Shown in pieces: positions 11,498 to 45,810 of a stretch of DNA of 64,000 nucleotides. The stretch covers positions 2,542,001 through 2,606,000 of the forward strand of contig JABBOT010000037.1 of the NCBI GenBank assembly GCA_016165875.1, given 5' to 3'. The DNA comes from Acanthopleura granulata (taxonomy: Eukaryota > Mollusca > Polyplacophora > Chitonida > Chitonidae). The first letter of the stretch is position 1. Each line of letters begins with the position of its first letter. The notes under the pieces were generated by a model. That model was not told the origin of the DNA. It saw only the letters and a program-made list of their open reading frames with translations, and made no database searches. The position numbers and the translations under genes are program-made.

Positions 11498-11626
11498 AGT
11501 AGTATATAATGTAACTCACGACCATTATTCTTATTTCTTAATCTCGGTGGTACCGCTATGACGGTATAGGGTTTGGCAGCTTGCCAAGTTGGAGCGAGGA
11601 GGGGGAGGTACCGCGATGGCGTCATC
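11498..11626 (+). repeat. Polinton left terminal inverted repeat
   Basis: Begins AGTAGTATATAATGTAAC and includes GGTACC at two places (about 11550, 11608) and a TTGGCAGCTTGCCAAG word. It matches the inverse of 23235 inward, but carries only one unit of the repeat that is tandem at the right end. Confidence 0.8.
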
Positions 11627-11639
11627 GGAAGATTTGGGT

Positions 11640-11655
11640 GGTCCTGAAAAGGACC
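11640..11655 (-). terminator. Histone-type 3' stem-loop, end of small gene B
   Basis: On the minus strand this reads GGTCCT-TTTC-AGGACC, a 6-bp stem with a 4-nt loop, followed by ACCCAAAT. It lies 38 nt after the stop codon at 11693-11695. This is the layout of replication-dependent histone mRNAs (stem-loop then ACCCA). No clear purine-rich downstream element follows here. Confidence 0.75.
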
Positions 11656-11692
11656 GTTGGAGATGTTGGTGGAGGGGGAGGGCAGTTGGTAT

Positions 11693-11800
11693 TTAATTCC
11701 CCACTCCCCCCTGCTGACCTCCCCCCGCGCCGGTAAGGTGTTGGCCGGTGCTAGTGTTGCCCTCTTCCGGGCTGAAGTTGTATGTTGCTAGGAAGGAACT
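11693..11800 (-). pseudogene. Small gene B, C-terminal part
   Basis: The minus strand encodes a Gly-rich end, GAGGGQQGGVGN, closing on TAA at 11693-11695. The same last seven residues, QQGGVGN, close small gene A at 42032. The upstream boundary is where similarity ends, near 11800. The N-terminal part lies at 12984-13142, so the gene is split by about 1.2 kb of other sequence. Confidence 0.65.
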
Positions 11801-11817
11801 AGAAGTCCGTGATGGTT

Positions 11818-11910
11818 TGTAAACAGACAAACAGGGCGCTTTATTAACCCACCGCATCAGCAAATACAGCAACGGCTACGGACATAGTTTGCTGGAGCGA
11901 TCACGTCATC
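11818..11910 (+). repeat. 93-bp direct repeat, copy 1
   Basis: From tgtaaacagacaaacagggc to cacgtcatc; nearly identical to 12502-12595. The pair brackets 590 bp of unrelated AT-rich DNA inside the split small gene B, which could mean a duplicated target, an LTR-like pair or a local duplication. Confidence 0.7.
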
Positions 11911-12501
11911 AAATGACAGTTTTCATTTTTAATTTAATTGAAAATGTACGAATAAAGATAATGAAATATGCTCAAAAACAATGCCAATGCCTTTTGGTGT
12001 TATTCTCTTATGCGCTTCCATAGATTCACAAGGATATGAGTTTTCTCTTGTCCTGTACTGCTGTAAGTCCTTGTATAATATTCTAAGATCGTTGCCAGTA
12101 TTCCAAAAGCATACACAGCATTCATGTAATATCAGTATGGCATATACGGGCTTCCGTAGATTTTTACTACAAAGAGGTTTTGCCATATATGGAGATATGA
12201 GTTCCATTTACTCTATGATAAATGCTATGCATAAGAAATATTACTACTCTGCTAATAGAGTTCGCTTCTTATAACTTACACGAAAATATTCTCTATCAAG
12301 ATAACAGTTTTTGGTCGGTCCGTTCTACATTTAGGCTTTGCGCAATTAACCCGCGCGACATGTTAACACGCTAGTAGATAGCTCGACCTCTGAACTGACA
12401 TCATCTGAAAATCTCCACTACTCATGACTCGAACTCGACACAAGAATCATCAAAATACGTTCTACAATATTGTTACATAATAATTCAAGGTGTACATTAC
12501 C

Positions 12502-12595
12502 TGTAAACAGACAAACAGGGCCCTTTTATTAACCCACCGCATCAGCAAATACAGCAACGGCTACGGACGTAGTTTGCTGGAGCGATGACGTCATC
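12502..12595 (+). repeat. 93-bp direct repeat, copy 2
   Basis: Partner of 11818-11910 with a few substitutions (for example gggcgc/gggccc, catcacg/catgacg). Confidence 0.7.
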
Positions 12596-12983
12596 CCTGG
12601 TGTCTACTAAAATTATTATTTATACAATATTTATGAACACTGACTAAGGCGAAAACACATATGCTGTTATTTACCTCATTATTATGCACCGCACATGACC
12701 TAACACTAAAAGTGAACCTTCCCTTCTATCAACTTCAGTACTTACACAAATGTAACTCTTCAAAAACGTCCAAAATAAAACAGAACAATTGTCGGAAATG
12801 ACATGTCTATTTCTATGACGGGTTGGCAAGGGAAATAAATCTAGGGGTGTAAGCGATGCAGTTAGAGTCTCTTCCCCTGATCGGCCCATTTACTGTATGT
12901 ACATCTAATATATGTCACACTAGTCCTGTGGCTGCGGCTGGTGTGGTCTTTCATTTGCCACTCAAGCTCCCTCCATTAACTGG

Positions 12984-13142
12984 TCAAACCATAGGGGAAA
13001 CGCCTGCCCCCTCCGTCCGGTAGCTCTCTACCTGTGCGCTACTGATCTCCACTAATTTGTTGTGGATATGGACATTCGCCACGTAGCGATCATACGCATT
13101 TAGGTGTTCTCCGGCTAGCTCTATGATGATGTGGTCTTCCAT
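12984..13142 (-). pseudogene. Small gene B, N-terminal part (Polinton small-gene family A/B)
   Basis: ATG at 13142-13140 opens a 52-codon frame, MEDHIIIELAGEHLNAYDRY then VHIHNKLVEISSAQVESYRTE. It aligns with small gene A at 41748: both share AYDRYxAxVxIHxKL and a spaced SxxxVxxxRxE. After about residue 44 the similarity stops and the frame closes with unrelated residues, because inserted sequence separates it from its conserved C-terminus at 11693-11800. The upstream region matches gene A's promoter, including a TATA box and a GATGGCGCTGCGA motif. Function unknown; no known fold was recognised. Confidence 0.65.
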
Positions 13143-13189
13143 ATTGTCCCGAGTGAGTGAATGGGTCGGTCCTGCTTTAAGGCTGGTGC

Positions 13190-13293
13190 TTTTATATGAT
13201 TCGTGCGGATTCAGTTATTTTTAGAAACTGCGCCAGATAATTAGCGCGGACTGAAGGGAAAACCGTTCCATGCGTCGCAGCGCCATCTGTCGG
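13190..13293 (-). promoter_or_regulatory. Promoter of small gene B: TATA box and CTCF-like motif
   Basis: Minus-strand TATAAAA at 13196-13190 lies 48 bp before the ATG. Further upstream, 13293-13275 reads CCGACAGATGGCGCTGCGA, matching the AGRKGGCGC core known for CTCF. The arrangement equals that of gene A (41608-41706). Binding is inference. Confidence 0.6.
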
Positions 13294-13531
13294 GGATTCA
13301 CCATCTGTAGGGAGTCCCCCATTGGTGACAGCTGTTTTACCATTATGTCAAATTCGCCCCCAGCTGGCATGATGGAAAATCTGCACAAGTTTTGGCAATA
13401 TTTTGGCAATTCCGCACCTCAACCAGCAGTATACTTCAGGACTTCACACCGTCAACTACCATTGACTGACAGACTTACTTTTTTTCCATTATGCCGAGAA
13501 GTAAACAGCCGCAGCAGCAGCAACTGGGGCG

Positions 13532-13582
13532 ATGAATACTGTTTTCGCAGACGGAGAGAGTGGATGCAGAGCCCACGCCTAA
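13532..13582 (+). pseudogene. PC4-like gene of the Polinton, first codons
   Basis: ATG 13532 starts MNTVFADGESG, matching the start of the intact homologue MNTFLSDKEEE (41264). Sixteen codons on, at the CTAA of 13579-13582, piggyBac element 2 begins. The gene resumes at 15829. Confidence 0.6.
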
Positions 13583-15828
13583 CCCTTTCGCAGGCAAATT
13601 TCGGCCCAGAGACATACCCCCACAGGCGGATTAATTCAGTGTTTTTACCGAAAAAGGGTTATTATTCAAAATAATGACACAATGACAATAAATCTGTTAA
13701 TCATTGCCACATATATATTGTTTTCATGTAGGATTAGCATAACAGAACAGTAAAACTGACTGGTCTTACCTGATTTGTGATAATTTGGGAAACATGTCTT
13801 ACACAATCCAACATCACAGTCTTTGCACCAAGTCGTGATACGTGTTCCTTTGAACCCATCACCACGTTTCTCTGCACAAACCAAATATTTCTTCCTTTTT
13901 TTTTTCTGGAATTGTCTCTAAGAAGTGTCTTTCCCTCTTCGTAGCCTGTGGTTGACCAATACTTGGCCTACCAGCTTTCACACGAGGCTCAGCGTAGCCA
14001 CCAATCAGACCCTCAACAACAGAGATAATGAAATCACAATGTGTCTTCGGATTGTTCTTATAGCATATGTATGCGTTTGTCAGAGTTCTGTCAATAAGAT
14101 GGAACACTACTTTACGCCAACACTTCACAGTGCCCAGTTCTGGAGCATAGTGGTCTGTCATCTGATCAGATATATCTACTCCACCCATCCCGCAGTTGTA
14201 CTCAATCACAATGTCCGGAATTGTTTTTACGACATTCCTTCTGGTAGTTTTATCTACAGATGTTGCCGAAGCACTAGTGGAGACAAGCCTAACTTGCTTT
14301 CTGTCTCCCCAACTAACAGCCAAGATCTGTCCTTTTCTCATAGCAGTTAGATCCCCCTTTTTGTTGTTTTTTTCTTCACTTGATCAGGGAGATTACGGCG
14401 ATCACAAAGAAGAGTGCCTGTCACATACATCCCTCTTTTCAGCATCTGTTCAGCCAGTTGAATGCTGGTGTAATAGTTGTCTACCACCAAAAGATGATTC
14501 TTGTTCTCATGTGGAAACATAAGTTTGGCACAAACATCAAAGGGTTGTCCATACTGGCTTTTTTTTGCCCCTGCTTGGTGATACATGGTGTGATGAAGAT
14601 AACCTGTCAACGAGTCACACAGATTGTACTCTTTAGGCCCCCACTGGTGGTGCTTCTTTATTCTGATATAATTGACCAAATTGTGCCTCCCTTTGAATCC
14701 AACAATGGATTCGTCAATTGAAACCATGCGGTTTAGTCTAAATTCACGTGCCCAAGCTGCGTTGAGGTGATCAAGCACGGCTCGAAATTTGTACTGTGGA
14801 TCATAGTTCTGCGTCCCATGAGCAGGTTCCAAGGCACTGTCTGATGCATGGAAGAAGCGCAATATCAATTTGAATGTATTCAGTTTCATTACCTTCCGAA
14901 AGACAGGAGTGTCTTGGGAGTAGTCCGTTGTGTTCCAGTATTGTTCAATGGAATGTTTACGCACCAGGCCCATGTTGAGTACCAGGCCTACGAATGCACG
15001 CAATTGCTCAACAGTCACATCTTTCCAGAGGTGCATTTTGGAATGTTGCTGAAGCACGCCAAGCTTTGCCTTATACCAATGAAAATATTTGTTAGTTTCT
15101 TGAACAAGGAAGTCCCAAAGTGAAGGACCGTTGCCATCAGAATTGAAGAAACGATCAAAGTACTCGATGGGCGTGGCCTCAACTGGCACCCACACAGGGC
15201 CACTGGGGGCAGTAAATTCATTTACTACAGGAGGCCTAACACTCTGCAGGTCTCTAATACGTTGCCACTGCTCTCCACACTCATTATTAGGCGTGTCGGA
15301 TCCACTATCAGATTGACTTTCATTATCAGATAGTGTATGCACGCTTGTATCACTATTGTCAACAACAACATCGTCGATGTTTGACGCAATCTCACCGTCG
15401 GATTCCTCGCCAGAATCGCCAAAATCATTAGGATCCAAGTCACTGCCGCTCTCTGGATAATCTAAATCATCGTCCGAATCATTCAATAAAGTACTAACTT
15501 CATGTAGATTGTATTTACGCTTAGAAACACGACTGGAATGTCTTGTCGCTGCACTCGTGGAAGCCATGTTGTTTACACTTCCTGTCATTTGACCCGGAAC
15601 TAAACTTTTAACTAGGGCTCTAAGGTAGTCCCATGCTTGGCTGACGGCTAAAAATACATTGACGATAACCTGAGAGACAGCCAATGAAAATGTGTGTTAC
15701 TACCTAGGGGATTCCCCCAGTCAGCCAATGAGAGTAGACTTTATAAAACAGGTTTGCCAATCCGACAAAAATGTCGCTTTGCCTGCCGGCCAGTTGACGA
15801 CATTAATGTCGCTCCGTCTGCGAATGGG
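13583..15828 (-). mobile_element. piggyBac element 2, inserted in the PC4-like gene
   Basis: Ends are CCCTTTCGCAGGC (13583-13595) and, inverted, CCCATTCGCAGAC (15828-15816): 11 of 13 matching. The flanks are CTAA (13579-13582) and CTGA (15829-15832). The intact PC4-like copy has a single CTAA at the equivalent point (minus strand, 41212-41209), so the target was CTAA rather than TTAA, with one copy since mutated. Length 2246 bp; transposase on the minus strand. Confidence 0.8.
13740..15569 (-). pseudogene. piggyBac transposase 2, full length with two frameshifts
   Basis: Probable start is the Met of MASTSAATRHSSRVSKRKYN (15569), since residues before it look like leader. The N-terminus is acidic; the core has all three catalytic Asp contexts: VSIDESIVGFKGR, LVVDNYYTSIQL and GMGGVDISDQM. 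A Cys/His finger follows (TTWCKDCDVGLCKTCFPNYH, about 13790-13850). Two breaks, near 14345 and near 13895, both fall in A-runs (KKKTTK and KKKRKK codons), suggesting simple slippage indels. Otherwise it is close to intact, so the insertion is relatively young. Confidence 0.85.
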
Positions 15829-16232
15829 CTGAGAAGCAGATTAAACTCTCTCGGTCGGACAAGAAGATTTCATTAAAAACTCATGATATCGATATCCCCA
15901 ATGGATATCGAATTCAAGTTGGTGAAGATAAAATTACCTTTGCCGAACGTATCAACCAACCTTACGAGCGCAGTAATAGCCATTTCAGCGGATGCCTGGG
16001 AGGAGTTTGAAAGCCTCCTTCAATCAGAAGCCCACCGAAGAGTAATGGGTCCTATACCAGCTAGTGAAGGCGATGATGAGATTAGCGTACCGTCAGAACA
16101 GCTGTTTCGCCTGAGTAATGACGTTTTCTTCAGTTTGTCAACAGATAAGAATCCGCAAACTGGGGAGCGCTGGTGGTATTTGAATATTAAAGAATGGATG
16201 CAATACAGCAAGCAGGGAAAGTATTATCCTAA
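15829..16232 (+). pseudogene. PC4-like gene of the Polinton, middle part
   Basis: Resumes right after piggyBac 2 with IKLSRSDKKISLKTHDIDIP, collinear with the intact protein at 40338-41264. A frame slip occurs near 15975 (YERS to IAISADAWEEFESLL). It then reads NPQTGERWWYLNIKEWMQYS, the PC4-like core, and stops matching at KYYP (16232), where the AGCT-rich sequence of the next element starts. Confidence 0.7.
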
Positions 16233-16239
16233 GGCTTTG

Positions 16240-16440
16240 GCCAGATGATAAGCTGCGCTGTAGCCGCGCTTTGAGCTAGCGGTAAGAGAGCTGTTGAGCT
16301 GCGAGCAGTGGGTGACCACACCAAAAGCGGCGATCGCTGGCAGTTAGCTAGCGAATTGCTAGCTGAGAAGCTGGTTAAAGCTTGTGTGGCCACAAGAATA
16401 GCTGTGGCAGCTAGATGTAAGCTAGTCTGCGGCCAGCTGT
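16240..16440. repeat. AGCT-rich segment at the edge of the Harbinger-like insertion
   Basis: Twelve AGCT tetranucleotides lie between 16251 and 16438, several as GCTAGC or AAGCT; under one would be expected. It starts where PC4-like homology ends and precedes the Harbinger N-terminal exon, so it may be a transposon subterminal array. Confidence 0.5.
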
Positions 16441-16788
16441 GCATTTTGTTGTATCGGTATCCAGCCACAAGACAACGAAAATCGCAGCGAGAAGGTATCT
16501 CCTACTTTCTGAGTTCTCTGAACCATCGCCATATATACGGCGAGGAATTCTTTTTGGTAAGAGGGAATACTGGGTCCATCCCATTAATACTCAACAGAGT
16601 GTATATGGAGAATATCACCATTTAATTCCCGAACTGAAACAAGATGAAGAGAGATTTCACTCCTACTTCAGAATGCTACCAACCACTTTCGCAACGCTGC
16701 TAGACCTGGTTAAACCTCAACTTTGTAAACAAGACATTGGCTTCAGGCGACCAATATCAGCAGAAGAACGCTTTACATTGACACTGCG
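16439..16788 (+). CDS. PIF/Harbinger transposase, N-terminal exon
   Basis: The exon encodes RREYWVHPIN-like sequence (GKREYWVHPINTQQSVYGEY, then ELKQDEERFHSYFRMLPTTF and RRPISAEERFTLTLR), the conserved start of Harbinger/HARBI1-type nucleases. It ends on a GTAAGT donor (16789). The DDE core that should follow was not found on this strand; a C-terminal Harbinger segment lies on the opposite strand at 20872-21084. The true start is uncertain. Confidence 0.7.
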
Positions 16789-16799
16789 GTAAGTGTTGT

Positions 16800-17530
16800 G
16801 TAACTTACATTTGTTATAAAGATCATACAAACACATTGTGATTTTGTGTCCTCCACCACATTAATTTGTTTTCATCAATTTAACTATCAGAGCAACAATA
16901 AATATGTATACAAACTTCATATATATAAACTACACCAAAACAAACACACCCACCACACAATCATAGCGGGGATAGTTCGGACAATTTTTTTCAAGTGGCG
17001 CCAGTGCACACTGTTTTCTTGTAATAACACAATGTATCTTAATACTCAAATCTAATTAATAGGCACATTTTAGTAAATAACATTTAATATATTGCTGTAA
17101 TATCATTACGAAGGAACTATGAACTATCAAAAGAAAACCAGGAGTTTTTAACAAATTAATTTTTGGTTGACACGCAAAATAGTAATCGTTTTGCGGTAGT
17201 GTGTGTTTTGTCATCTATACTGTTACTCAAATTGGCACATTCAGAACTAATCAAACCAGTGTACAGTGGGTTTTAAAGGGGTTCTCCGAACCATCCCGGC
17301 TGTCCCCTAAATCAAACAAAGAAAAACATGGTATTTCTTTTTTATTTGTCATTGTAACTTTCAATGAAACCTTTATTAATCGTAATGAAATGTTAGAACT
17401 TTGATCACATGTCAATTATATTTCTACACTTATATCAACAACTTCACTATATGAAAAGAAAGCACCACTGTACATTTTTCTCTGTAGGTTTGGGAACTAG
17501 TATGCACAGCCTAATCTGTCCAATTTTGCC
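16800..17530. other. Non-coding stretch after the Harbinger exon
   Basis: AT-rich with no recognised exon; presumably intron or decayed transposon interior. Confidence 0.35.
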
Positions 17531-17532
17531 AT

Positions 17533-17880
17533 TTAGCGAGTAGGACAGCGACAGTTAGGGCAACAGTTGGAAAGTCGGTTGTTCTTCTTGTTGAATTTTC
17601 TCTTGGATAGATGCGTGGTAAGTTCCCTGAACTGTTCTCGTCTAAATAGCATCGGCTGGGAACTGCAGTTGGTAGAAGGTGGTGGCCCATTTCGCTGAAG
17701 TTGTTTCAGCACAGCATCGTGCACAATTCTGTTGATGTCATTTTTGACTTGCATTATCAGATATGGGTCTGTCACTTTCCGCAAATCACATTTCAAACCG
17801 TTGCAGAATGTTCCCCACTCATCCATCGGTTCCTTGCACTCTTCGGCAGCCAGGACTTTCTTTAACTCTTTGACTACGGA
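17533..17880 (-). CDS. BESS/MADF-like accessory protein fragment
   Basis: Reads DEWGTFCNGLKCDLRKVTDP followed by IMQVKNDINRIVHDAVLKQL, the pattern of a C-terminal BESS-like protein-interaction motif in MADF/Myb-like proteins. Such a protein is the second gene of many Harbinger elements, which fits its neighbour at 16.4-16.8 kb. It ends in a Cys/Arg-rich tail. Confidence 0.45.
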   Translation of the reverse strand, partial: SVVKELKKVLAAEECKEPMDEWGTFCNGLKCDLRKVTDPYLIMQVKNDINRIVHDAVLKQLQRNGPPPSTNCSSQPMLFRREQFRELTTHLSKRKFNKKNNRLSNCCPNCRCPTR

Positions 17881-18414
17881 ATATTTTTATGGTCTGGACG
17901 GAATAAATGTAGTCTGATTTTATATTTCGCAACATCTTATCGATGTAAACTAAATTTACCCCGCCAATGAATAGCTGGATATATAAAAGTATACATTTTT
18001 GAAATCCTTGTTAAATTCTCTTTTCAAATAAACCACAATGAAGATTCAAATGAATTCTGACTTTCTTATATTTTGACCTCAATATCACAAAATAAAAAAA
18101 TGGTCAACATTTATGAAACGACTTCCATCAAACATTTGGTGAATGACTGAATAATGCAAGAACAACCTTTTGTCTCATCTTATTCAACATGGGGCTCAAT
18201 TGCAGGGATACTTGGAGTGAACTAACAGTATGAGGATAGCCCTCTATTTACCAAGTTTTACAAAAAAACTCATGTATACTTGAGGTTACATATACATGTA
18301 CACTTGTAAGTTTGAAAGTATTGTCACAACCTGTCATACTGTGGGGTATTTATGATATATATCATAAGTACAAACTGCACAACAATGGCAGAAAGATAAT
18401 AATGGCTCATAAAA

Positions 18415-20205
18415 TTATTCTGCTGTGTGAAATTTCTGAAAACAGTCTTTGGGATGGAGATGAGGGGTCCCGGTACAACCAGAGCTCACAAAGTTTGTGC
18501 GCTTTCGTTTGACTGGTGTGCTGCACACAACACAGTTTCTGTCCACTGGAAGATAACTAACAAGATGCTTTACGTCCTTGTATCTTTCAAGTGGATTGGA
18601 TACTCTGGGGCGACCGACATGTGGCAGAACATCACTGGGTGGCATGATTGTTGCAGCTTTTTCAACAAGTTTTGTAAGAAGCTGTCGTTTGAACTGTTGC
18701 AAGCTTGTTTTTCGAGATCCCTCGGCTCGTGTCAGACAGTAGAGAATGTAGGCATTGCACTGGCGTACTTCCAGCAGCCACATAAATACACGTTTCCACC
18801 ATTTATGGGTCTTTCTGTTGAACTGGCTATAATAAGTAATGCATTGATCTACTCGATCACAGCCATTCATACAAGAATTGTATTCGTGTACTACAGTTGG
18901 TTTCTCCACGTTTTCACCACGTCTTAGTGTCACTGAAGTTGTTCCCACTGTGGCCTTAGTTGAGACAAGTATACATGGCTTTTTAGCCTTTTTGTCCCCC
19001 CATGCAACACACAGAATTCCACCATCTCTACTGCGATAGGATTTTGATTGTCGGTGATCAAGCCTCAGAGTTTTGAGCTCAGGGGGGAAGTACTTCCTGT
19101 TCAACATCAGGGTTCCTGTGTAATAAGTGTCGCGCTCGGATAAATACTTTATCAGATTGTAAGTGGTATAATACCTGTCAGCAAACACATGGTGGCCATT
19201 GCCAATAGGCCTCAACAGGTATTCAAATACTTTCTCTGCTTGTCCACTTGAAGGATCTAATTCTGGGTTGTACGCGGTTTCTTTCCCAAAGTATACGAGT
19301 AAATTGTAAACTTAACCAGTTGAGCTGTCGCACAATCCATACGTCTTGATATGGCACTTTCTTGGTTTTGCAGCATTATACTGCTTATATTTCCACCGAC
19401 CTTTCCATCCGATGACCATTTCATCAATGGAGAGATTTTCATATGGATAGAATGCTGCCTGAAATTTTGCGACAAGGCTGTTGAGAAATGGCTCTATTTT
19501 TTCTTTGGAAACAGAGTTCACATTGGATGCATGAAGCATAGTGTGGTATATAGCTTCAAATCTGCTACATGGGAACATATCAGCATACCAAGCAGTGTAA
19601 TAAGAGGGAAATGTCGACCAGTAATCTTTCACAGAAGGCCGTTTATCCAAACCCATCGCAATCAGAACCGCCAAAAATTTTAGCAGCTCATGTTTATCAA
19701 CAGGTTTCCAATAATTGTACACGGATCTGCGCCTTGGGGAATTGTTCAGATTTTGTCTATGTTCAGCATATTCATTTGTCATGGAAAGTATGTCTGGGTT
19801 AGCGTTGTCTAAGTGAAAGGCTAAGCAACGAAAGAAGCACAAATGATCATCGTAAGCGCCACTGCTTCCACTCACCGTGTTGTGCAAGCCTTTGTTCTTC
19901 CGCACGTAATCAAGTGCGTGCACTGGGGTATCGATAGGGATGGCACATGGTTTATGCACATAAAACGTAACATTCGTCACACTGTCCACCAACCATTCGG
20001 TATTTGGGCGCTGTGTCCGGGCTGATTCCATTGGGTCGATAGCTGACAAATCAGCGGTAAGTGTTTGTATATCCCCGTAGGTGTGAATATACCGACATTC
20101 TGAAAGTGTTCTTGTATTAGTACTTGGATAGAAATAACGCAATTGGTCTGTATCTCGGTGACATAAAATGAAACCATCAGCTAGGTTGATACGAAAAGCC
20201 GAAGG
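18415..20205 (-). pseudogene. Chimeric frame: polymerase-B N-terminal fragment joined to piggyBac transposase 3
   Basis: On the minus strand, 20205 to about 19805 encodes a fragment (LADGFILCHRDTDQLRYFYP, EWLVDSVTNVTFYV, DDHLCFFRCLAFHL) resembling the region upstream of type-B DNA polymerases of Polinton-like elements. Without a frame change it continues into piggyBac sequence (ILSMTNEYAEHRQ, VDKHELLKFLAVLIAMGL) with the three Asp contexts NLSIDEMVIGWKG, VFADRYYTTYN and MNGCDRVDQC and a Cys-rich end. The only interruption is one TAA at 19312-19314. The junction near 19800 has TTAG, not a clear piggyBac end. Polymerase assignment is from motif recall and is less sure than the piggyBac part. 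Confidence 0.65.
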
Positions 20206-20239
20206 CTAGTCAAGAAACACCAGGTCTAGGTGTGTAGTT

Positions 20240-20650
20240 AAAGGATAGAGTCCCATGATCCGGAAATTATACACATCCTGCAAAGGACGATGATGAAATT
20301 GCTGTTTTCGGATAGTGCCCCAGTGACGTTGGTATATGTCCCGTAATGCCGGGTCTGCAGGTAACTCATCATATGAAGGTGTGATGGAAATCGAAACGAA
20401 TTAGCGCTATTATTGAAGTTATCCCCCGCCGTTCCATTACCGACAGAGGCGGTATGAAATTCACCCTGATCAACCACGCTGCTATCCGACCCCAGCGGGC
20501 TAAACACAGCCTCAGGTAAGGCAGATTGAGTGATATGTAAGGGTAATGAGGAACCCCTGCAGCCCTCAGATCCAGCAGCAGAGTGAACCCCAGACTTTGA
20601 TACTGAAGCAGTTACACGACCTCCAGTCTGTGAAATGGGCTTCACCTGCA
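20240..20650 (-). pseudogene. Polinton polymerase-B region, extreme N-terminal part
   Basis: A Ser/Gly-rich frame (SKSGVHSAAGSEGCRGSSLP) runs to about 20330. In a shifted frame it then reads DIYQRHWGTIRKQQFHHRPL and DVYNFRI, which looks like the conserved entry to the polymerase-B fragment that follows. At least one shift and a TAG (about 20206) separate it from that fragment. Confidence 0.45.
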
Positions 20651-20871
20651 TAACAAAAAAAAAAAAAAAATCATAAAATATCGCAAATTCAGCGTTTCAA
20701 GGGAGTCATATACTCGTACCGCCATATTCCCACTGTATAATAGCTTGCCGTATGCGCATAAAATAAGACACAAAGTGTATACCGCAACAGTTTAACCTAG
20801 AACACAGGTGAGAACTTCGAAATAGCTATGAATCGCCTGGGAATTTCTACCAAGGTGTAACCCAGACCTAG

Positions 20872-21084
20872 TTATTTGACAATGTCACGAAACAACGGAC
20901 CAATGTTGTTGAGCTCCTGGGGTTCTGGCTCAACCCTGTCTCCTCTCTCCATTGCAATATTGTGCAGAATCGCACAACACACTGTAAGTTTCCATACTTT
21001 GTTCGGCGCCATGGGTGATTTGTTATGGAGGTAAGCAAACCTTCGCTTTTCGACGTGCCTCATAACATAACTAAAATAACACAT
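20872..21084 (-). pseudogene. PIF/Harbinger nuclease C-terminal segment
   Basis: Reads EKRRFAYLHNKSPMAPNKVW then LTVCCAILHNIAMERGD; the AC-x-LHN-type motif is the conserved end of the Harbinger DDE nuclease. It lies on the opposite strand from the N-terminal exon at 16.4 kb, so it is another copy or an inverted part. Confidence 0.65.
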
Positions 21085-21621
21085 GTTTTTTTATAGTCAC
21101 GTATTTACATGTATTAGCAACCAATGTCTTTGTGCTCTGTACATGTAACTACACTACTCTATATGTGTATCAGGACTAAAGAAAACAAAACAGACAACAC
21201 TTGTATTTACGTATATATGTTTTATTGTATAAAAAAGGTATATAAATGTTTGTGTGTGTATGTATTATGTGCATGTAGTATATTTTCAGGTTGAAATTTA
21301 TGCATGAATTGGAGAGAATACCATATCGTAGTAAAAAAAATAGACCCAAAACAAAAAAAAATTAGGGATTCCCCTGCTGGGCTTGTCATGCTACGTCATG
21401 GTGTGTGACGTCATGCCTGGTGGGGACTTTATCGTCTGCCACACGTAGCCGTTTGACTGACAGACAGGCTATATATGCATTATGTGCGAGAGCATTCGTG
21501 GAGGTTATGTTTTTACATGTAGGTCAAAGAATTTTCATACAGAAAGGGAGCTCCACCATTCTGAATAACCTTATCTTATCCAAAATGCTGGAACATATCG
21601 CTCCCACTTATTAGAGTAGTC

Positions 21622-22080
21622 ATGGAAAAGCAGCGCAAAGGTTGCCTTGTTAACCATTCCAACCAAACTCGCCATACATGCCTCGAGGAGTGGTGGAGGT
21701 TAGAAAGGAGCCGGGGCCGATGAAGTACTGGAGACGGCGAGGGCCAAACAAGCAGCTTGGCACAAGTTGGGGGAGATTTACGGCCAGATGAAGTTATGGA
21801 GCAGGATATAGGTCTGGACAGCAGGACAGTGCCGTAGCAGAAGTAACAGTGAACCCGGGCGATGGAGAATGGCTAATGGCGACCAAACCATCATCGTTGC
21901 CGATACATCACTGATTTTTTTTTCTTTGGGGAATATGGGGAAGTCGTGATTACCCGGGGAAGGATGAAGACGGCGTGGCTGAGATTGAGTTTCGCCTGCA
22001 CGAAGTTAGAGGAGGCCCAGCGTTAGCCCGTCGCCCGTTCTACCTAACGTATGGTAGGCTGCCAAGCTAGGGTGTACAAA
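21622..22080 (+). pseudogene. Small gene C', near the Polinton right end
   Basis: An ATG at 21622 opens a basic frame (MEKQRKGCLVNHSNQ). In a shifted frame (about 21720-21790) it reads EVLETARAKQAAWHKLGEIY, similar to TARGQKRAAWGRF of small gene C at 42542. It lies at the same position relative to the Polinton terminus as gene C and ends with a stem-loop at 22092-22107. Frame breaks indicate decay. Confidence 0.5.
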
Positions 22081-22091
22081 CCGTTTCCAAA

Positions 22092-22107
22092 CGCTCTTAT
22101 AAGGGCG
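22092..22107 (+). terminator. Histone-type stem-loop after small gene C'
   Basis: CGCTCT-TATA-AGGGCG gives a 6-bp stem with one G-T pair and a 4-nt loop, followed by CCCATT and then gaataaactttc, in the same context as the stem-loop after gene C at 42856. Confidence 0.55.
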
Positions 22108-22962
22108 CCCATTCCCTCGAATAAACTTTCAAATCTTAGCACAATATATGGTTCATGTTTGTCTCGTTCAATGTAAAACAAAATAAAATCAGCCCTCCTG
22201 ACAATCATCCTCGTTAATCGGTTTGCTAGCAATTTACATACATACATGTACATACGTACTGCAAATTATACCAAGTTTTCATCTGCATATAACACTGGCA
22301 TTTACATCCATACTGGAAAAAATTATACATATTACGAGTGTCTATATTTTTTTTTATTTTTTAAATGTATATGCCAACTAAAGTCTGATATTTCACGCTG
22401 TATTCTTTATATTTCTGTACACACAAGTAACCCATTGGTAAGCCCTGTCTCTATATGCACGCATAATCTTGTGTACTGTATGGCCCCACCTTAACTTATA
22501 TATAAAATAACACTACACACTATGCTGTAAATGTATGCTAACAATAGTATAAAAAAATATACATATATATATATATTCACTGTTATTTCTCCATCCATAT
22601 AACTTTCCTTCCCATGCCCAATCCGACGATGATGTCGTTTCAGGCTTGCCATACGGGTAAACTGCTTAGCACAGTTCTTACAACTCTACGTACAGCTGCC
22701 TGATCCATGAACTTCCCGCTTCTGACGATTTAGGGTTCTACGTGTCTTAGTCACACGCGAACACAAATCACAGGTAAATGCCATCACTTAACTTCCTTTC
22801 TCAGTCATCCACTGCAACGTCTTTGCACCAAACATACCAAAAATGACAAACACCGCCAACCTTTTAATGTCATTATCACGTGCACACCGCATGATACAAA
22901 AAACACCTTCACCCAGCTATTAAAATACCGGTACTCGTAACTTTGCACCGTGCCGAGCCCTA

Positions 22963-23174
22963 TGACGTCATAACGGTACCTCCCCCTCCCCAACCTGGCA
23001 AGCTGTCAAACCCTATAGCGGTACCTCCCCCTCCCGCCCCTACTTGGCACCCTGCCAAATCCCATGACGTCATAACGGTACCTCCCCCTCCCCAACCTGG
23101 CAAGCTGTCAAACCCTATAGCGTTACCTCCCCCTCCCGCCCCTACTTGGCACCCTGCCAAATCCCATGACGTCA
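22963..23174 (+). repeat. 102-bp tandem repeat in the Polinton right TIR
   Basis: TGACGTCA occurs at 22963, 23065 and 23167, exactly 102 bp apart; two full units and a partial third. Each unit is a near-dimer of about 51 bp built on CGGTACCTCCCCCTCCC and GGCA-n-TGCCAA words. TGACGTCA is the full CRE palindrome. The open frame across it (repeated VPPPPQPG) is a by-product of the repeat. Confidence 0.9.
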
Positions 23175-23235
23175 TAACGGTACCACCTTGGTTAAAAGAT
23201 AGGAATAATGGTCGTAAGTTACATTATATACTACT
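23106..23235 (-). repeat. Polinton right terminal inverted repeat
   Basis: Inverse of 11498-11626; ends CATTATATACTACT, followed by the CATTGG duplication. Confidence 0.8.
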
Positions 23236-38417: not shown

Positions 38418-39308
38418 TCAAAAATTCTTCTCAAAAGTTCTCTTGACTTTACTAATGCGAACGAGATCTCCTATTTTATACCGATATATTCGACGACTGC
38501 ACCAGGACTTCATAGAGCTATATAATATAGTCCGAACTTCATGTTCATTGTCGGTTGTAACGGTAATCGGGGCTCGCTGAATGCTGCGGTGATACGCACG
38601 ATTGTAAACCTTCGTTAAGCCAGGTAAAACATCCAGGTAACGTCGAGTGTTATTAGTGGTGAAATATTTATACATCCGACCTTTAAAGGTGCGATTAAAC
38701 CGCTCAATTACGGAAGCTTTCGTTTCATTAAATGTATGAAAATAAAAAATCCCATGCTTCTTTAAAAATGTCTGAAATGGCTTGTTGAGAAACTCTGTTC
38801 CCTCGTCAGTTTGTAAAAATAATGGTTTTCGTCCAGACTTGAATACCCTTTTATATGCCTCAATGAGATTAGCACCTGTCTTAGTAGGTACGGGGACTAC
38901 CCAAGCGTATTTAGAAAAAATATCGATGCATATGAGCAAGTACCGGTTACCTGAATTATACCTGGCTAGTTTACTCATGTCAACCAAATCAGCTTGCCAC
39001 GGACTGTCTATTCCACCCACAATAACTCTATTACGAGCATAGTGTCGCCGAGCCGGCCGATGAAGTGTATACGCCTCCTGTTTGGCCAACCAAGTCTTTA
39101 TATCGTCACGTGACACAGGTAAATCATGCTGACGTGGTGCCCGTAATAAAGCACCTACTCCACTATAAGCAGTTGGACTTTGGGGGTCATGATATAGCTG
39201 TTGTAAGACTTTAGCAAGGGTATCCTGAGATTTGGTTATGCCCACTTTCTTCTCCTTTGTCCTCGTATGGAATCGAACTCTCTTCTTCCCTCCTCGGCGG
39301 TAAGTCAT
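38418..39308 (-). CDS. Polinton-type integrase (RVE family)
   Basis: A 296-residue open frame. Residues 50-95 form an N-terminal region (YSGVGALLRAPRQHDLPVSR, TLHRPARRHYARNRV); the RNase H-like core starts at IDSPWQADLVDMSKLARYNS (first Asp), then PLFLQTDEGTEFLNKPFQTF (second Asp) and NETKASVIERFNRTFKGRMY (Glu), with 33-34 residues between the last two. The C-terminal part (YRYKIGDLVRISKVKRTFEK) resembles the SH3-like start of longer relatives but ends at TGA before any chromodomain, so it is probably truncated. It would join element ends to target DNA in the nucleus, giving 5-6 bp duplications as seen at 11492 and 23236. Confidence 0.85.
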   Translation of the reverse strand: MTYRRGGKKRVRFHTRTKEKKVGITKSQDTLAKVLQQLYHDPQSPTAYSGVGALLRAPRQHDLPVSRDDIKTWLAKQEAYTLHRPARRHYARNRVIVGGIDSPWQADLVDMSKLARYNSGNRYLLICIDIFSKYAWVVPVPTKTGANLIEAYKRVFKSGRKPLFLQTDEGTEFLNKPFQTFLKKHGIFYFHTFNETKASVIERFNRTFKGRMYKYFTTNNTRRYLDVLPGLTKVYNRAYHRSIQRAPITVTTDNEHEVRTILYSSMKSWCSRRIYRYKIGDLVRISKVKRTFEKNF

Positions 39309-39324: not shown

Positions 39325-39747
39325 TTATGTTATACCCATTTTCACTAAAAACCAACAAGTAGCGGCGCAAGTGATACAGACAGCTAGAGATGTGTAAAGC
39401 ATCCTGGGTGTGAGAGATATTGATTCAGGTTTTATAGGGGTTATAGTCGGTGACTTGCGCTGTAAGTCCATGAGTTTCGGTATAACTTCCTGGTGATAGT
39501 ATTTACGAATCGGATTAGAATTCTCTAGCCGGTCACAAACGTCTTTAGTGAATAGTCGGAGAATAGTGCAGCGTCCTTCATTCACCAGTTGATCTTCAAA
39601 CATAGATTCCACTACCCCCTTACATGCTTGGAGGTCGGTTACTGAATCAACAAGTTCTCTCCATCCTAAAACCCGCGATTTCATCTTAGACGTCTTGTCA
39701 CCTGTGTAGCTAGTGAAATAATAATGAAATATTGTAGAGCACCACAC
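39325..39747 (-). CDS. Small tail-anchored protein between integrase and PC4-like gene
   Basis: The open frame is 140 residues; an internal Met (MKSRVLGWRELVDS, near residue 22) may be the real start. The body is charged and probably helical (LENSNPIRKYYHQEVIPKLM). The C-terminus is a single hydrophobic stretch, MLYTSLAVCITCAATCWFLV, then KMGIT, the shape of a tail-anchored or minor virion membrane protein. It sits 16 bp upstream of the integrase on the same strand. No family recognised. Confidence 0.55.
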   Translation of the reverse strand: MWCSTIFHYYFTSYTGDKTSKMKSRVLGWRELVDSVTDLQACKGVVESMFEDQLVNEGRCTILRLFTKDVCDRLENSNPIRKYYHQEVIPKLMDLQRKSPTITPIKPESISLTPRMLYTSLAVCITCAATCWFLVKMGIT

Positions 39748-40337: not shown

Positions 40338-41264
40338 TCACCAAATTTCAAAATTCAATAAATTGTCCATGTAATGGCTTAGTTTTGTTGTACTCTTCGT
40401 CTCCACACGCCCAGTCCCCTGATACGTATTCACTGTTGATATCGATGTATTCCCCAAATGAAAACCCTTACAATTGTCGAAATTAAGCACTCTAATATTT
40501 CCTCCATAGTCCGAGTTAAATTGAAATCGTTTGCGGGAAGATGTAGGTGGCACGCGGCAACCCTTACACTGTTCCTCTTTGACTTGATTTAGTAGCGGGG
40601 TCATATGCTGGATCATCATACGCCACATTAAATTATCAAGTAAGCTGTTCTCCTCATCAGTGAGAGGCATCGGTGGCTGTGGAGAGATAGGCGACGCATT
40701 AGCTGTATGGGACACTCCCTCATCTGTTTTTCCAAGTTTCCCTCGAATACGCTGGCAGGCCTCGCTCAAGTGTTTCCACCTATCAGCTCGGAAAGCGATA
40801 CCACCTTTCCTAGGATAATATTTCCCCTCCTTGCTGTATTGCATCCATTGTTTGATATTCAAATACCACCACCGCTCCCCAGTTTGTGGGTTCTTATATG
40901 TTGACAAACTGAAGAAAACGTCATCATTCAAGCGAAACAGCTGTTCTGACGGTACGCTAATTTCAGTCCCATCTTCATTCGCTGGTATAGGCCTGATTAC
41001 TCTTCTAGCGGTTTGTGATTGTAGGAGGCTTTCAAACTCGTCCCAGGCACTCACCGGAATGGCTATATTTCGTTCGTAAGGTTGGTTAACATGTTGAGTG
41101 AAGGTGATTTTATCTTCACCAACCCGAATACGATACCCATTAGGAATATCGATATCACGGGTTTTCACCGAAATTTTCTTCCCAGAACGAGCAAGTTTAA
41201 TTCGCTTCTTAGGCAGGAGCTGTACATCCACTTCTTCTTCTTTGTCAGATAAAAAAGTATTCAT
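40338..41264 (-). CDS. PC4-like (transcriptional coactivator p15 fold) protein of the Polinton
   Basis: An intact 308-residue frame from ATG 41264. Residues about 20-35 are basic (KKRIKLARSGKKISVKTRD). The middle segment FFSLSTYKNPQTGERWWYLN / IKQWMQYSKEGKYYPRKGGI / AFRADRWKHL resembles the PC4 C-terminal single-stranded-DNA-binding domain (W..I..W......PRKGGI.....W..L). The C-terminus contains EQCKGCRVPPTSSRKRF and ends NLLNFEIW. A homologue in the other Polinton (13532-16232) is broken by a piggyBac. Divergent from small gene A over about 480 bp, so the two may share regulation. A role in late transcription or genome binding is inference. Confidence 0.6.
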   Translation of the reverse strand: MNTFLSDKEEEVDVQLLPKKRIKLARSGKKISVKTRDIDIPNGYRIRVGEDKITFTQHVNQPYERNIAIPVSAWDEFESLLQSQTARRVIRPIPANEDGTEISVPSEQLFRLNDDVFFSLSTYKNPQTGERWWYLNIKQWMQYSKEGKYYPRKGGIAFRADRWKHLSEACQRIRGKLGKTDEGVSHTANASPISPQPPMPLTDEENSLLDNLMWRMMIQHMTPLLNQVKEEQCKGCRVPPTSSRKRFQFNSDYGGNIRVLNFDNCKGFHLGNTSISTVNTYQGTGRVETKSTTKLSHYMDNLLNFEIW

Positions 41265-41747: not shown

Positions 41748-42032
41748 ATGGATGAGTTAATGTTGGCAGTGGCGATGTGTGAATACAACAAGGCGTATGA
41801 CCGGTATGAGGCAAGTGTTAATATTCATACCAAATTACTGGCGATGAGTGTATCGGAAGTGGGAAGGACACGGGCTGAATTACAAAGCTGGTGGGAAATG
41901 CTGCAGCTAGGCTGTACGGCGCTGGGAAAACCATTCCCACCATGGGCTCCACCACCTGCACCGCCAACGAAAACCACGCCGGGGAAGGAGGACGAGCAGA
42001 AGGGGGAACAGCAGGGTGGCGTGGGAAATTAA
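41748..42032 (+). CDS. Small gene A (Polinton small-gene family A/B)
   Basis: I chose ATG 41748 because an upstream in-frame ATG (41706) overlaps the TATA box. The 94-residue product opens MDELMLAVAMCEYNKAYDRY and SVNIHTKLLAMSVSEVGRTR, probably a helical hairpin, then a Pro-rich linker (PFPPWAPPPAPP) and a Gly/Gln end, EQQGGVGN. Gene B in the other Polinton shares both the N-terminal pattern and the QQGGVGN end, so both termini are under constraint. It has no resemblance to histones, yet a histone-type stem-loop follows 36 nt after its stop. Function unknown. Confidence 0.7.
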   Translation: MDELMLAVAMCEYNKAYDRYEASVNIHTKLLAMSVSEVGRTRAELQSWWEMLQLGCTALGKPFPPWAPPPAPPTKTTPGKEDEQKGEQQGGVGN

Positions 42033-42068
42033 AAACCAACCACCCTCCCCACTTCCCACATTTCCAAC

Positions 42069-42084
42069 GGTCCTTTTCAGGACC
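42069..42084 (+). terminator. Histone-type 3' stem-loop of small gene A
   Basis: GGTCCT-TTTC-AGGACC, preceded by AAC and followed by AACCATG, then the purine-rich CCCAAAAGAAACTTTC (42096-42111) where a histone downstream element would sit. Distance from stop is 36 nt, as in replication-dependent histone mRNAs. Confidence 0.85.
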
Positions 42085-42125
42085 AACCATGTCTTCCCAA
42101 AAGAAACTTTCAAAAAATCTAAGCA

Positions 42126-42127
<2 letters not shown>

Positions 42128-42160
<33 letters not shown>
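42128..42160 (+). repeat. (TA)n microsatellite
   Basis: About 16 TA units directly after the gene A processing region. Confidence 0.9.
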
Positions 42161-42162
<2 letters not shown>

Positions 42163-42204
42163 TGAGTTATGTATGTATGGTTTTAATGTCTGTGTTTTGT
42201 CCGA

Positions 42205-42349
42205 TAGATGGCGCTGCGACGATTGTAACGGTTCTCTCTTCGGTCCGCGCTGGTTGGCTGACTAGCACAGCTTCTAAAAATAACAGAATCCACACAAATC
42301 AAATAAAACGAGAGGTTAACTGGGTGAAACAACGGTCCTTTTCAGGACC
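42205..42349 (+). pseudogene. Remnant of a third A-type gene: promoter joined to stem-loop
   Basis: Starts TAGATGGCGCTGCGA (42205-42219) and continues like the gene A promoter (taacggttctctcttcggtc), with an eroded TATA (aaataaaacg). It passes straight to GGTCCT-TTTC-AGGACC (42334-42349) and ccgaaggaaactttc. The whole coding part is missing. Confidence 0.7.
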
Positions 42350-42496
42350 AACCAACCCTTCCCGAAGGAAACTTTCAATATCTAAGCATGATATGTGAGT
42401 TATGCATGTATCGTTTCTGAAAATTTGCTCTTTGTGACCGCTACGCTTTTTGGCGCAATACCGAAGTTTACCGGACTTTACAAGCCTCCTGATTTG

Positions 42497-42503
42497 TATA
42501 AAA
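42497..42503 (+). promoter_or_regulatory. TATA box of small gene C
   Basis: TATAAAA 45 bp before the ATG at 42542. Confidence 0.65.
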
Positions 42504-42541
42504 GCCAGCCCGCGCTAACCATTTCATATCCAGCCCTCACA

Positions 42542-42808
42542 ATGGAGATAAGTACGGTTCTAAGGACGTCAGCGGAGTGCGGGATGGCGTGTGTTAGGCA
42601 CGAGCGTATACGGCGTGCCTATCTGCGGGGAGAGGCCATTTACCCCCAACTTGTCACTGCCCGAGGCCAGAAGAGGGCTGCTTGGGGGCGATTCGTCCGG
42701 GCGGTTTTAAGATTAGATGCGCGGAGGACCCCGAGAATTATCTTTTACTTTCTGGCAGGAGGTGGCAGGCAAGAGGGAGAGAGCAGGCAAGACTCAGAGA
42801 GCGGGTAA
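42542..42808 (+). CDS. Small gene C
   Basis: 88 residues: MEISTVLRTSAECGMACVRH, ERIRRAYLRGEAIYPQLVTA, RGQKRAAWGRFVRAVLRLDA and an end GGGRQEGESRQDSESG. It is Arg-rich and probably helical. I preferred this frame because its stop leaves 47 nt to the stem-loop at 42856, as in gene A. A related relic (C') lies at 21622-22080 in the other Polinton. Function unknown; the Arg-rich character would suit nucleic-acid binding. Confidence 0.6.
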   Translation: MEISTVLRTSAECGMACVRHERIRRAYLRGEAIYPQLVTARGQKRAAWGRFVRAVLRLDARRTPRIIFYFLAGGGRQEGESRQDSESG

Positions 42809-42855
42809 GAGGAAGAGAGGGAGTGAGCCACCCATGGCACAAAAGCCAATTCCAA

Positions 42856-42873
42856 ACGCCTTTTTCAAGGCGT
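42856..42873 (+). terminator. Histone-type 3' stem-loop of small gene C
   Basis: ACGCCTT-TTTC-AAGGCGT: a 7-bp stem with the same TTTC loop but different stem bases from gene A, followed by ACCATT and GAAAGAACTTTC. Stem covariation with the loop kept is what an RNA-level function predicts. Confidence 0.8.
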
Positions 42874-43299
42874 ACCATTCCACCGAAAGAACTTTCACAT
42901 CTTCGCACAATATATATGGTTCATGTTTGCCTCGTTTATTGTTTTTGATTTGTCCGTTTTTTTTTTATGTAAAACCAAAAAATTAGCCCTCCCACCAGTC
43001 AACTGCCCCTTAACCAATTTGCTAGGGATTTACATACCTGTACATACAGCAAATTATATCTACGTCCATCCACATATAACACTACCATTTACATCCTTAC
43101 GGCAAAACAATTAAATACATTACGAATGTCTATACATTTTTTTCTAATTATTTAAAGTTATATCTCAACTAAAAGATGATATTTCACAATGTATTGTATA
43201 CTATATTTTCCATACACACAACCCATTGATAAAACCCTATCCCTCTATATGCAGGCATAATCCGCCTCACGGAATGACCCCAATCACGTGCACACCACA

Positions 43300-43436
43300 T
43301 GATAGGAAAAAAACCACACTCTACCTTACCAAAACATATGACGTCACCACGGTACCACCAAGTACCACTGGGTACCACCACCAAAACCCAGGTTAAAAGA
43401 TAGGAATGAGGGTTGTGGGCCACATTGTATACTACT
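43300..43436 (-). repeat. Polinton terminus of the second segment
   Basis: Contains TGACGTCA-like (tgacgtcac), GGTACC words and ggttaaaagataggaatgag, ending ATACTACT at 43436. Aligns with 23106-23235. Confidence 0.75.
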
Positions 43437-43909
43437 CACATTCTATCTGCTCGGTAGATTTCTGAGAACCTTTTGGGAGTTACTTCATAGAACGCTGTAC
43501 GTGATCCCCACCGGAGACCGCGCGTTTGCAGCTGCTTATATAGGACCCAGACGGCTCCGCATAACGTGCGGCAAACTTTCACCGAAAGCTCTATTAATAT
43601 GCACTCCCGTTCTCAAAGCCACTGTTCGGATCCCTTAAACAGAAACGAACTGCTTGGCCTACAAGACACGGATACACCGGGCAATGTCGGTGGTTCACAA
43701 AACAAGTTAGCTCGGCTAACTCAGTGTCACAGCTTGCATCATTGCATGGCATGGTGACGGCTCTCGTCTCGGAGCGAAAAGCGGAGAAAGAGAACCTTAC
43801 TCTTAGCGCCCAGTCGGTTGCGAAAATGGGCGAAGCATGACAAAGACTTGCCCAGCAAAATGAAACAAGGCCTAACGCCTTTATACCGGGTATTAATTCC
43901 GAGGAGCCA

Positions 43910-44730
43910 GTGAGTAAACAAGAGCGTTTAAATCCACTGGACGAGTCTCAACACTTTGACCCAGAACTAGAATCGGATAGTGATGGAGACACGACTCTAA
44001 GTCTGCTTGGAGCACCAATATCAGAACCAGCTGTTGACTCAAATAAGGTCTGTGATGACACGGATTTATTGACTGAAATTGAGCAAGATCTCGAATCAGA
44101 TGAAGCTATTGGACCAAAAATTGGTGTAAAAGTGGCTAGGACTGTTGGCAATAGAGGGTCAAACAATAGATGACAAACTTCAGGCAAGTACAATCGGACA
44201 GAAAACTGTCACAAGATTTTTGTACCGAAAATCATCAATGCGTTTGCAAAACGTGTGGATCTGCGACAGTCTAATGTACAAAAAAATGTACTGAAGGCCT
44301 CTATAGCTGTAACACAGCTAACTGATACTTAGGATCCCACACCCTGGACTTAAAAGTCGGTCATGCCCATGGCAACGGACGCATTAGCCTTGTTAGTCCA
44401 CGCGTCATATGACATGTCGCTGAAGCGTGGACAAACTCTTCGCCCCTCTCTCGGTAAAGATATGCACGCAAGATGTGCCGGTCACCGAGATGTTGCTCGG
44501 GGATAACCTACAGCGATCGCTCAAAGAAGCGAAAGAGGCTGATAAAATCGCCTCGTCTGCATTCGACAAAGGCAGGAGTGACCAGATATGGAAAGGAAAA
44601 GGCTACAAATCTCAGAACAGAGGCGGACAGTCTCAAAGCCTTTGTGGGAAGTCTTTTTCAGGACGGAAGTACAACAACAACAATTATAAAACCCAAACAG
44701 GTGGACAAAAAACTAAGGCCTGTGGATAAC
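43910..44730 (+). pseudogene. DIRS gag-like region
   Basis: Acidic start (DPELESDSDGDTTLSLLGAP), a conserved gag-like stretch in shifted frames (KYNRTENCHKIFVPKI near 44185), then VTEMLLGDNLQRSLKEAKEA and a Gly/Asn/Lys tail (SGRKYNNNNYKTQTGG). At least three frame breaks. Confidence 0.6.
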
Positions 44731-44739
44731 TTACCTATT

Positions 44740-45810
44740 ATAGAGGTGATTGAATCTGAGTCATATTGTCCCACATTAATCTCTAACCTAGAGAGCCAAG
44801 TCCTCAATTCTAAAACAGGCAGAATTAGTCATTATTCTGATAGCTGGAATGAGGTATCATCTGACCCAGATATTCAGGGTGTGGTCAGTGGAGTTAAAAT
44901 AGATTTTGACAAATGGCCAAATCAATCAATTACTCCTCGTCCCACAAGATGCAATGAAGGAGAGGAAACAATCATAGGTGGAGAGGTTTTAAATCTTTTG
45001 AATAAGGCGGTGATTGAAAAATGTTATCATGAATGGAATGAGTTCATATCACCAGTCTTTGTTACTTTCAAAAAGGATGGCTCCCTCAGACTGATTTTAA
45101 ACTTGGAAGAACTGAATACATACGTTACCTACCACCATTTAAGATGGATTCTCTTGAGTCAGCTATCAAATTAATGGCCCCCAACTACTGTATGGCGAGT
45201 GTAGACTTCAAAGATGCTTTTTCAGCATTAAAATTCCTGAACCGTATAGAAAATTTTTAAAATTCATGTGGAAAAAAGAGCTGTATCAGTTCATCAGTAT
45301 CAGTAATGGGCTCGCATCTTGTCCTCGTATTTTTACAAAAATGTTAAAGCCTGTTTTCCCCAGTCTGAGAAACAGAGGTTACATATGTACTGGATACATT
45401 GATGACTCCTATTTACAAGGAGGAAGTTACAGTGAATGTGTGCAAAATGTCAAAGAAACTCACTTAATTTGACAGATTGGGATTTGTTGTTAATCCTAGT
45501 AAATCAAGCCTGATACCATCTCAGTGTATGACATATTTAGGATTTATTTTGGACTCCTAAAATATGACAGTGAGGCTTACACCAGAGAAAGCTGACAAAA
45601 TTCAGTTTGAATGCAATAAGTTACTTACCTGTACATCTCCAACTGTTCGATATGTGGCCAAAGTAATAGGTCTTATAATATGCAGGTTTCCTGGAGTCAG
45701 ATATGGACTCCTTCATTATCGAAATCTTGAAAATGACAAAATAATAAACCTGAAAGCCAGTAACTGGAGCTTTGATGGAAAGATGTCCTTGTTCTCTCAA
45801 TCGAGGTAAG
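44740..45810 (+). pseudogene. DIRS reverse transcriptase
   Basis: LLNKAVIEKCYHEWNEFISP and VFVTFKKDGSLRLILNLEEL are RT motifs; after a shift near 45150 follow APNYCMASVDFKDAF, then SNGLASCPRIFTKMLKPVF and the catalytic GYIDDSYLQGGSYSE. Later parts (RLTPEKADKIQFECN) lead to RNase H. Frame breaks near 45150, 45230, 45470 and a stop at 45560. Confidence 0.75.

Follow-up and report, generated by a model that had tools for sequence, protein, structure and literature searches.

To our knowledge, few genes other than the replication-dependent histone genes are considered to have histone-type 3′ ends. Published work describes how mammalian U7 base-pairs with an AAAGAG core, with cleavage by CPSF73 between the stem-loop and that element (PMC7026596), and how the histone mRNAs of C. 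elegans end 3–6 nt past the hairpin (PMC1924863). Among mobile elements, the closest described systems are the Polinton/Maverick elements and the adintoviruses, which are Polinton-like animal viruses with a PolB and an integrase. Histone-like proteins occur in adintovirus-related viruses, according to a paper in which the term "stem-loop" is absent (PMC11071296). No earlier report of a histone stem-loop in Polintons was found in searches of the open-licence PMC literature, which is weak evidence of absence.

The locus analyzed here is a 64-kb stretch of the Acanthopleura granulata genome, referred to in the following as the window. It contains two short genes, A and C, and a set of hairpins at the following positions:

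41748..42032, plus strand: gene A, 94 aa, TATAAA 47 nt before the ATG; 80 genome matches
42069..42084, plus strand: gene A 3′ stem-loop GGTCCT-TTTC-AGGACC; RF00032 31.3 bits
42099..42111, plus strand: purine-rich block AAAAGAAACTTTC, possible histone downstream element of gene A
42334..42349, plus strand: further stem-loop with no ORF, preceded by a copy of the gene A promoter region; RF00032 30.2 bits; recurs in other copies
42542..42808, plus strand: gene C, 88 aa, TATAAA 45 nt before the ATG; 66 genome matches
42856..42873, plus strand: gene C 3′ stem-loop ACGCCTT-TTTC-AAGGCGT; RF00032 14.4 bits only
42885..42896, plus strand: GAAAGAACTTTC, possible histone downstream element of gene C
11640..11655, minus strand: gene B stem-loop; RF00032 31.2 bits
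22092..22107, plus strand: degenerate C′ hairpin CGCTCT-TATA-AGGGCG, paired with one G-T

The arrangement behind gene A reads as the sequence-only reading had described it (36 nt gap, stem, loop, ACCA and purine-rich tract): the stop codon at 42030–42032 is followed after 36 nt by the hairpin, then by AACCA and AAAAGAAACTTTC. Behind gene C, the stop codon at 42806–42808 is followed after 47 nt by the hairpin, ACCA and GAAAGAACTTTC, again as described. The gene B hairpin lies 37 nt past a TAA on the minus strand (11655–11640) and is accompanied by ACCCA. Perfect Watson–Crick hairpins with a 6-bp stem, a TTTC loop and ACC at most 5 nt away numbered four per 64 kb, and 300 first-order Markov simulations gave a mean of 0.01 and a maximum of 1. 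These four hairpins are real, and chance is excluded.

A covariance search with the Rfam histone model (RF00032, Histone3), which the sequence-only reading had proposed, returned the gene A, gene B and ORF-less hairpins with E values of 4.9e-5, 5.1e-5 and 1.2e-4, respectively. All hairpins in the window score below the gathering score of 34 bits, so a default Rfam search of the window lists nothing; the sites over the cut-off belong to a further gene, D, described below. The gene C hairpin, with an E value of 2, falls far below the cut-off. The C′ hairpin, also proposed as one of the set, does pair, but its loop is TATA, making it a degenerate and weak case.

We searched the Acanthopleura granulata assembly (606,523,666 bases in 87 contigs) for copies of the two genes, and surveyed the 30 best gene A loci of the 80 matches and the 30 best gene C loci of the 66. 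The sequence-only reading had named stem-loops missing or unpaired in other copies as a finding that would refute it; the survey put this to the test, and the claim withstood it. At gene A, a hairpin was present at 29 of the 30 loci: at least five pairs were formed at 28 and four at one, the last locus having no hairpin. One locus (L067) was scored in the survey by its second hairpin, its own having five pairs. At gene C, a hairpin with a T[TC]T[CA] loop and at least 5/6 pairs was found downstream at 25 of the 30 loci. The first in-frame stop lay 28–40 nt before the hairpin at 17/30 gene A loci and 19–60 nt before it at 20/30 gene C loci; the remaining loci had an earlier stop, a frame running through the hairpin, or no hairpin. 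Of 27 gene A copies, 22 have TATAWA within 100 nt upstream of the ATG, as do 24 of 25 gene C copies.

The ORF-less hairpin in the window had been taken for a remnant. The hairpin is there, but it is not a local accident, because it turns up again at roughly one in three of the surveyed gene A loci: a promoter-like stretch with an ORF-less hairpin directly behind it was seen 240–530 nt past the gene's own hairpin in 11/30 (for example at window positions 42200–42400 and in L062, L064 and L082). One of the 11 cases is doubtful, since the hairpin at 530 nt may belong to gene C. The so-called gene B region (window 11693–13214, minus strand) is a gene A homolog interrupted by a stretch with 94-bp direct repeats at its borders (11818–11910 and 12502–12595, 96% identical); over 43 aa, its N-terminal piece shares 42% identity with gene A.

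The median dN/dS between copies was 0.25 for gene A (63 of 78 pairs used) and 0.22 for gene C (39 of 55), the unused pairs lying outside the range of the formula. By these values, the A and C proteins look selected between copies. AlphaFold predicted a single long helix for gene A and two helices for gene C, the latter with a mean pLDDT above 60 in only one of five models; these predicted folds are too simple for a useful fold search. A Pfam search with proteins A, C and D gave no histone match.

As the sequence-only reading had noted, the bases of the stem change between genes A and C while the fold is kept. Three of the six pairs differ, each by a paired double change: pair 1 is G-C in A-type and C-G in C-type stems, pair 3 U-A and C-G, and pair 5 C-G and U-A. 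This switch may be one ancestral event. The surveyed loci gave 54 gene A and C hairpin sites, of which 42 were aligned, the 12 omitted being identical over 32 nt to rows that were kept; covariation statistics were calculated on 34 distinct rows. The six stem pairs were formed in 92.6% of cells, which count sequences and not events, compared to 78.6% in shuffles (0/500 as high), a pairing count biased somewhat by the choice of sites with a score that includes pairing. With the partner slid, pairing was found in 18–51% of cells. The covariation score was 0.453, against 0.213 in shuffles (0/500 as high). Two of the five covariation measures were not above shuffles, namely the number of double-change pairs (3; 368/500 as high) and of further pair types (6; 500/500). 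Pairing and the UUUC loop are kept in A-, C- and D-type stems, as well as in the GGCCCT stems of L096 and of host H1 genes.

Downstream of the stem, a second signal recurs at a fixed spacing. GAAAG was found to start 12–14 nt past the stem at 23 of 29 gene A sites (13–14 nt), 21 of 25 gene C sites and all 13 D-type sites. Elsewhere, it was present at the same distance at 7/7 other RF00032 sites, 2/3 host H1 sites and 1/4 sites of a tandem gene family described below.

A search of the whole genome with RF00032 gave at least 71 matches, at least 67 of them over the gathering score; these counts are lower bounds, with 75 of 90,826 candidates scored. Thirty of the sites were inspected together with their flanks. 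Ten of these belong to a third small gene, gene D (about 112 aa), one of them partial. The gene D hairpin, GGCTCT-TTTC-AGAGCC followed by ACCCA, scores over the cut-off, for example at C26:112773 and C27:2674391 (38.7 bits). It lies 190–191 nt past the stop in five of the ten cases and 85–243 nt past it in the other five, farther out than in histone genes, for which the sequence-only reading gave 25–75 nt. A protein search with gene D found no relative at E 0.001. Five D-type hairpin sites spaced about 10–13 kb apart were seen at G000:C27:3241708-3284920, which suggests a tandem array of element pieces.

Three of the 30 inspected sites are host linker-histone genes, with the hairpin 25–43 nt past the stop; one (L057) was called by the Pfam Linker_histone model and the other two by eye. 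We also observed a non-histone protein family of about 105–125 aa with an acidic tail and with a histone-type hairpin 22–37 nt past the stop; on C31 and C10 its genes form tandem arrays. A Pfam search with this family gave nothing over the cut-off. These are possibly host genes that use the histone 3′ pathway. The members are:

G000:C31, units of about 1455 bp: L004–L007
G000:C10, units of about 1860 bp: L091
G000:C2:31865046: L097

Genes A and C in the window are accompanied by the following element features:

38418..39308, minus strand: rve integrase, PF00665 47.9 bits, shorter than its relatives and without their C-terminal chromodomain
39325..39684, minus strand: ORF of 119 aa, no assigned function
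40338..41264, minus strand: 308-aa ORF, weak PC4-like match, PF02229 20.8 bits, below the cut-off of 25
43391..43437: right terminus of element 1, which matches that of element 2
11498..23235: element 2, inverted ends AGTAGTATATAATG...CATTATATACTACT, 6-bp duplication CATTGG

The integrase has 1342 relatives. Those listed, 120 in number, include 110 with a chromodomain (PF00385); the best named relative is 63% identical and comes from the chiton Liolophura sinensis. Element 2 is inserted within a non-LTR retrotransposon and holds piggyBac-type transposases. The PC4-like ORF has a broken relative in element 2 at 15883–16248, and a protein search with it found no relative at E 0.001. Beside element 1, at 44473–47183, are ORFs that resemble by eye a DIRS-type element's reverse transcriptase and tyrosine recombinase; these gave no Pfam match up to E 0.01. 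The window ORFs searched with Pfam included no protease, packaging ATPase or capsid, and no PolB was found in the window's own broken element copies.

More complete copies are found elsewhere in the genome. A terminal motif ending in TATACTACT lies 0.25–1.4 kb past gene C at 21/30 loci, and a left end, AGTAGTATACAATG, was read in three elements (C83, C27 and C26, with one mismatch in C26). The target duplications of these three are ATGGAC (C83) and AACATC (C27), both exact, and TATTGA/TATTTA (C26), with one mismatch; the two-ended elements span 18,007, 20,922 and 19,712 bp, respectively. In all three, a D-type hairpin about 1.5–1.8 kb from the left end and genes A and C at the right end read outward. 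One of four PolB matches in the genome search (PF03175, 33.1 bits, cut-off 25.8) falls at C83:3199050-3199883, inside the C83 element bounded by its target-site duplication (TSD). The combination of integrase and PolB with genes D, A and C at the ends of TSD-bounded elements shows that the hairpin genes belong to a Polinton family.

The sequence-only reading had assigned the histone pathway to the element's transcripts in general, which exceeds the evidence, as does its view that the RNAs are poly(A)-free and regulated by S phase. Among the hairpins listed, no histone-type hairpin stands behind the window integrase, its neighbor ORF or the PC4-like ORF, and the claim is therefore limited to the small genes A, C and D. 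A poly(A) hexamer is found at 234 nt for the PC4-like ORF and within 300 nt for neither the integrase nor its neighbor.

A search of IMG/VR found no confirmed relative for the integrase, the PC4-like protein or the integrase alignment. The pattern GGTCCTTTTCAGGACCA hit one phage-like contig there, within a coding frame and with no Rfam match up to E 1, and AAMGGYYCTTTTCAGRRCCA hit one contig with a terminator-like hairpin that lacks ACCA; both were rejected as chance.

The central claim of the sequence-only reading, that Polinton small genes carry histone-type 3′ ends, is well supported. Many copies show the anatomy, the stem changes are paired, and in A and C the hairpin follows shortly past the stop. 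The genes have a downstream element in common and reside in elements bounded by TSDs, one of which has a PolB match. We consider it likely, with a probability of about 0.8, that the mRNAs of the terminal small genes A, C and D in this chiton Polinton family end by the host's replication-dependent histone route. In the proposed mechanism, which we infer from the anatomy, SLBP would bind the UUUC hairpin and the U7 snRNP would pair with the purine-rich element 12–14 nt downstream, for which the candidate block is (C)GAAAGRAACTTTC. CPSF73 would then cut past ACC(C)A, so that the mRNA would carry no poly(A) tail, and its synthesis and stability would be largely confined to S phase. Several observations weigh against this reading: the window A and C hairpins are below the Rfam cut-off, the D hairpin lies far from its stop, 5/30 gene C loci and 1/30 gene A loci have no hairpin, two covariation measures stay within the range of shuffles and the stem switch could be a single event, AATAAA or ATTAAA occurs between the end of the match and the hairpin at 7/29 gene A loci (0/25 for gene C), and the gene A flank is conserved well past the signal.

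One alternative is that the hairpins are passengers from a captured host histone 3′ flank and that the transcripts are polyadenylated further downstream, an account that we regard as unlikely. A poly(A) hexamer (AATAAA or ATTAAA) does occur within 300 nt past the hairpin at 14/29 gene A and 9/25 gene C loci; within 100 nt, there is none at any of these loci. The 3′ flank of gene A, moreover, moves or is kept as one block. Conservation over 21 gene A loci was 0.94 in the UTR, 0.98 in the hairpin and 0.97 in the downstream block, with 0.79 in the coding end and 0.76 in the far flank. Gene A lineages reach a dS of about 1.8, and we dropped the argument that the hairpin survives near-saturated synonymous divergence, because the aligned part of the flank 60–260 nt beyond it likewise shows about 95% identity between two lineages (gaps, of which there are many, being uncounted). 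Block exchange or block conservation would explain the gene A hairpin equally well, and the case is not based on gene A conservation. An A-type 3′ flank is also present at 9/25 gene C sites, where it was probably exchanged as a block. What speaks against passenger sequence is that the stems change their letters while the pairing stays, and that most copies of the three genes retain the loop, the pairing and the downstream element. Among 24 gene C loci, furthermore, conservation is higher in the hairpin (0.77) and the downstream block (0.81) than in the coding end (0.50), UTR (0.58) and far flank (0.52).

Paired changes suit DNA and RNA equally, and the genes sit close to the element ends, where a hairpin might act as DNA, for example in replication or packaging. 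Such a role is highly improbable, given that the hairpins listed are sense-oriented downstream of a gene, with CCAA and ACC(C)A flanks and GAAAG at a fixed spacing, which is the arrangement of histone genes. We see a similarly slight chance that the hairpin serves some other RNA role, such as stability or translation, in ordinary polyadenylated mRNAs; the downstream hexamers in part of the copies would fit, but the element 12–14 nt past the stem, which this family retains, serves histone genes as a processing signal. Finally, the existence of the tandem non-histone family on C31 and C10 could be taken to mean that A, C and D are host S-phase genes lying beside the element or recently swept up by it. 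This is extremely improbable in view of the terminal motif downstream of most gene C loci and of the three two-ended elements, in which D occupies the end opposite to A and C.

If the histone-route reading is true, a transposon or virus family uses histone-type ends for non-histone genes, which would be a new form of host dependence, and a link between Polinton activity and S phase becomes testable. The natural stem variants (A-, C-, D- and H1-type) would serve for tests of SLBP specificity. A wider proposal, which we offer tentatively and hold to be slightly more doubtful than probable, is that a virus-like element has wired the small genes that lie at its two ends to the host histone mRNA pathway. 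Their expression would then be poly(A)-free and occur mainly during host DNA copying, so that element activity would be coupled to S phase. The tandem non-histone genes of the host, which also end in hairpins, may represent a parallel instance or a domesticated one.

The 3′ ends described here resemble the histone 3′ UTR stem-loop (RF00032) read by SLBP and U7 in their 6-bp stem, UUUC loop, and CCAA and ACC(C)A flanks. Like histone genes, A and C are short and consist of a single frame, and they have a TATA box, a short leader and a short distance from stop to hairpin. The purine-rich element 12–14 nt downstream is placed as in two of three host H1 genes. Unlike histone genes, A, C and D encode non-histone proteins, the gene C stem deviates in having C-G as its first pair, and the D hairpin lies up to 243 nt past the stop. 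The rve integrase, the PolB match in one element, the inverted ends, the 6-bp duplication and the length of 18–21 kb are those of a Polinton/Maverick. What sets the chiton family apart is its small terminal genes with histone-type 3′ ends, a feature not found for Polinton/Maverick elements in searches of the open-licence PMC literature; it suggests that the element makes use of host machinery that processes messages in the replication phase.
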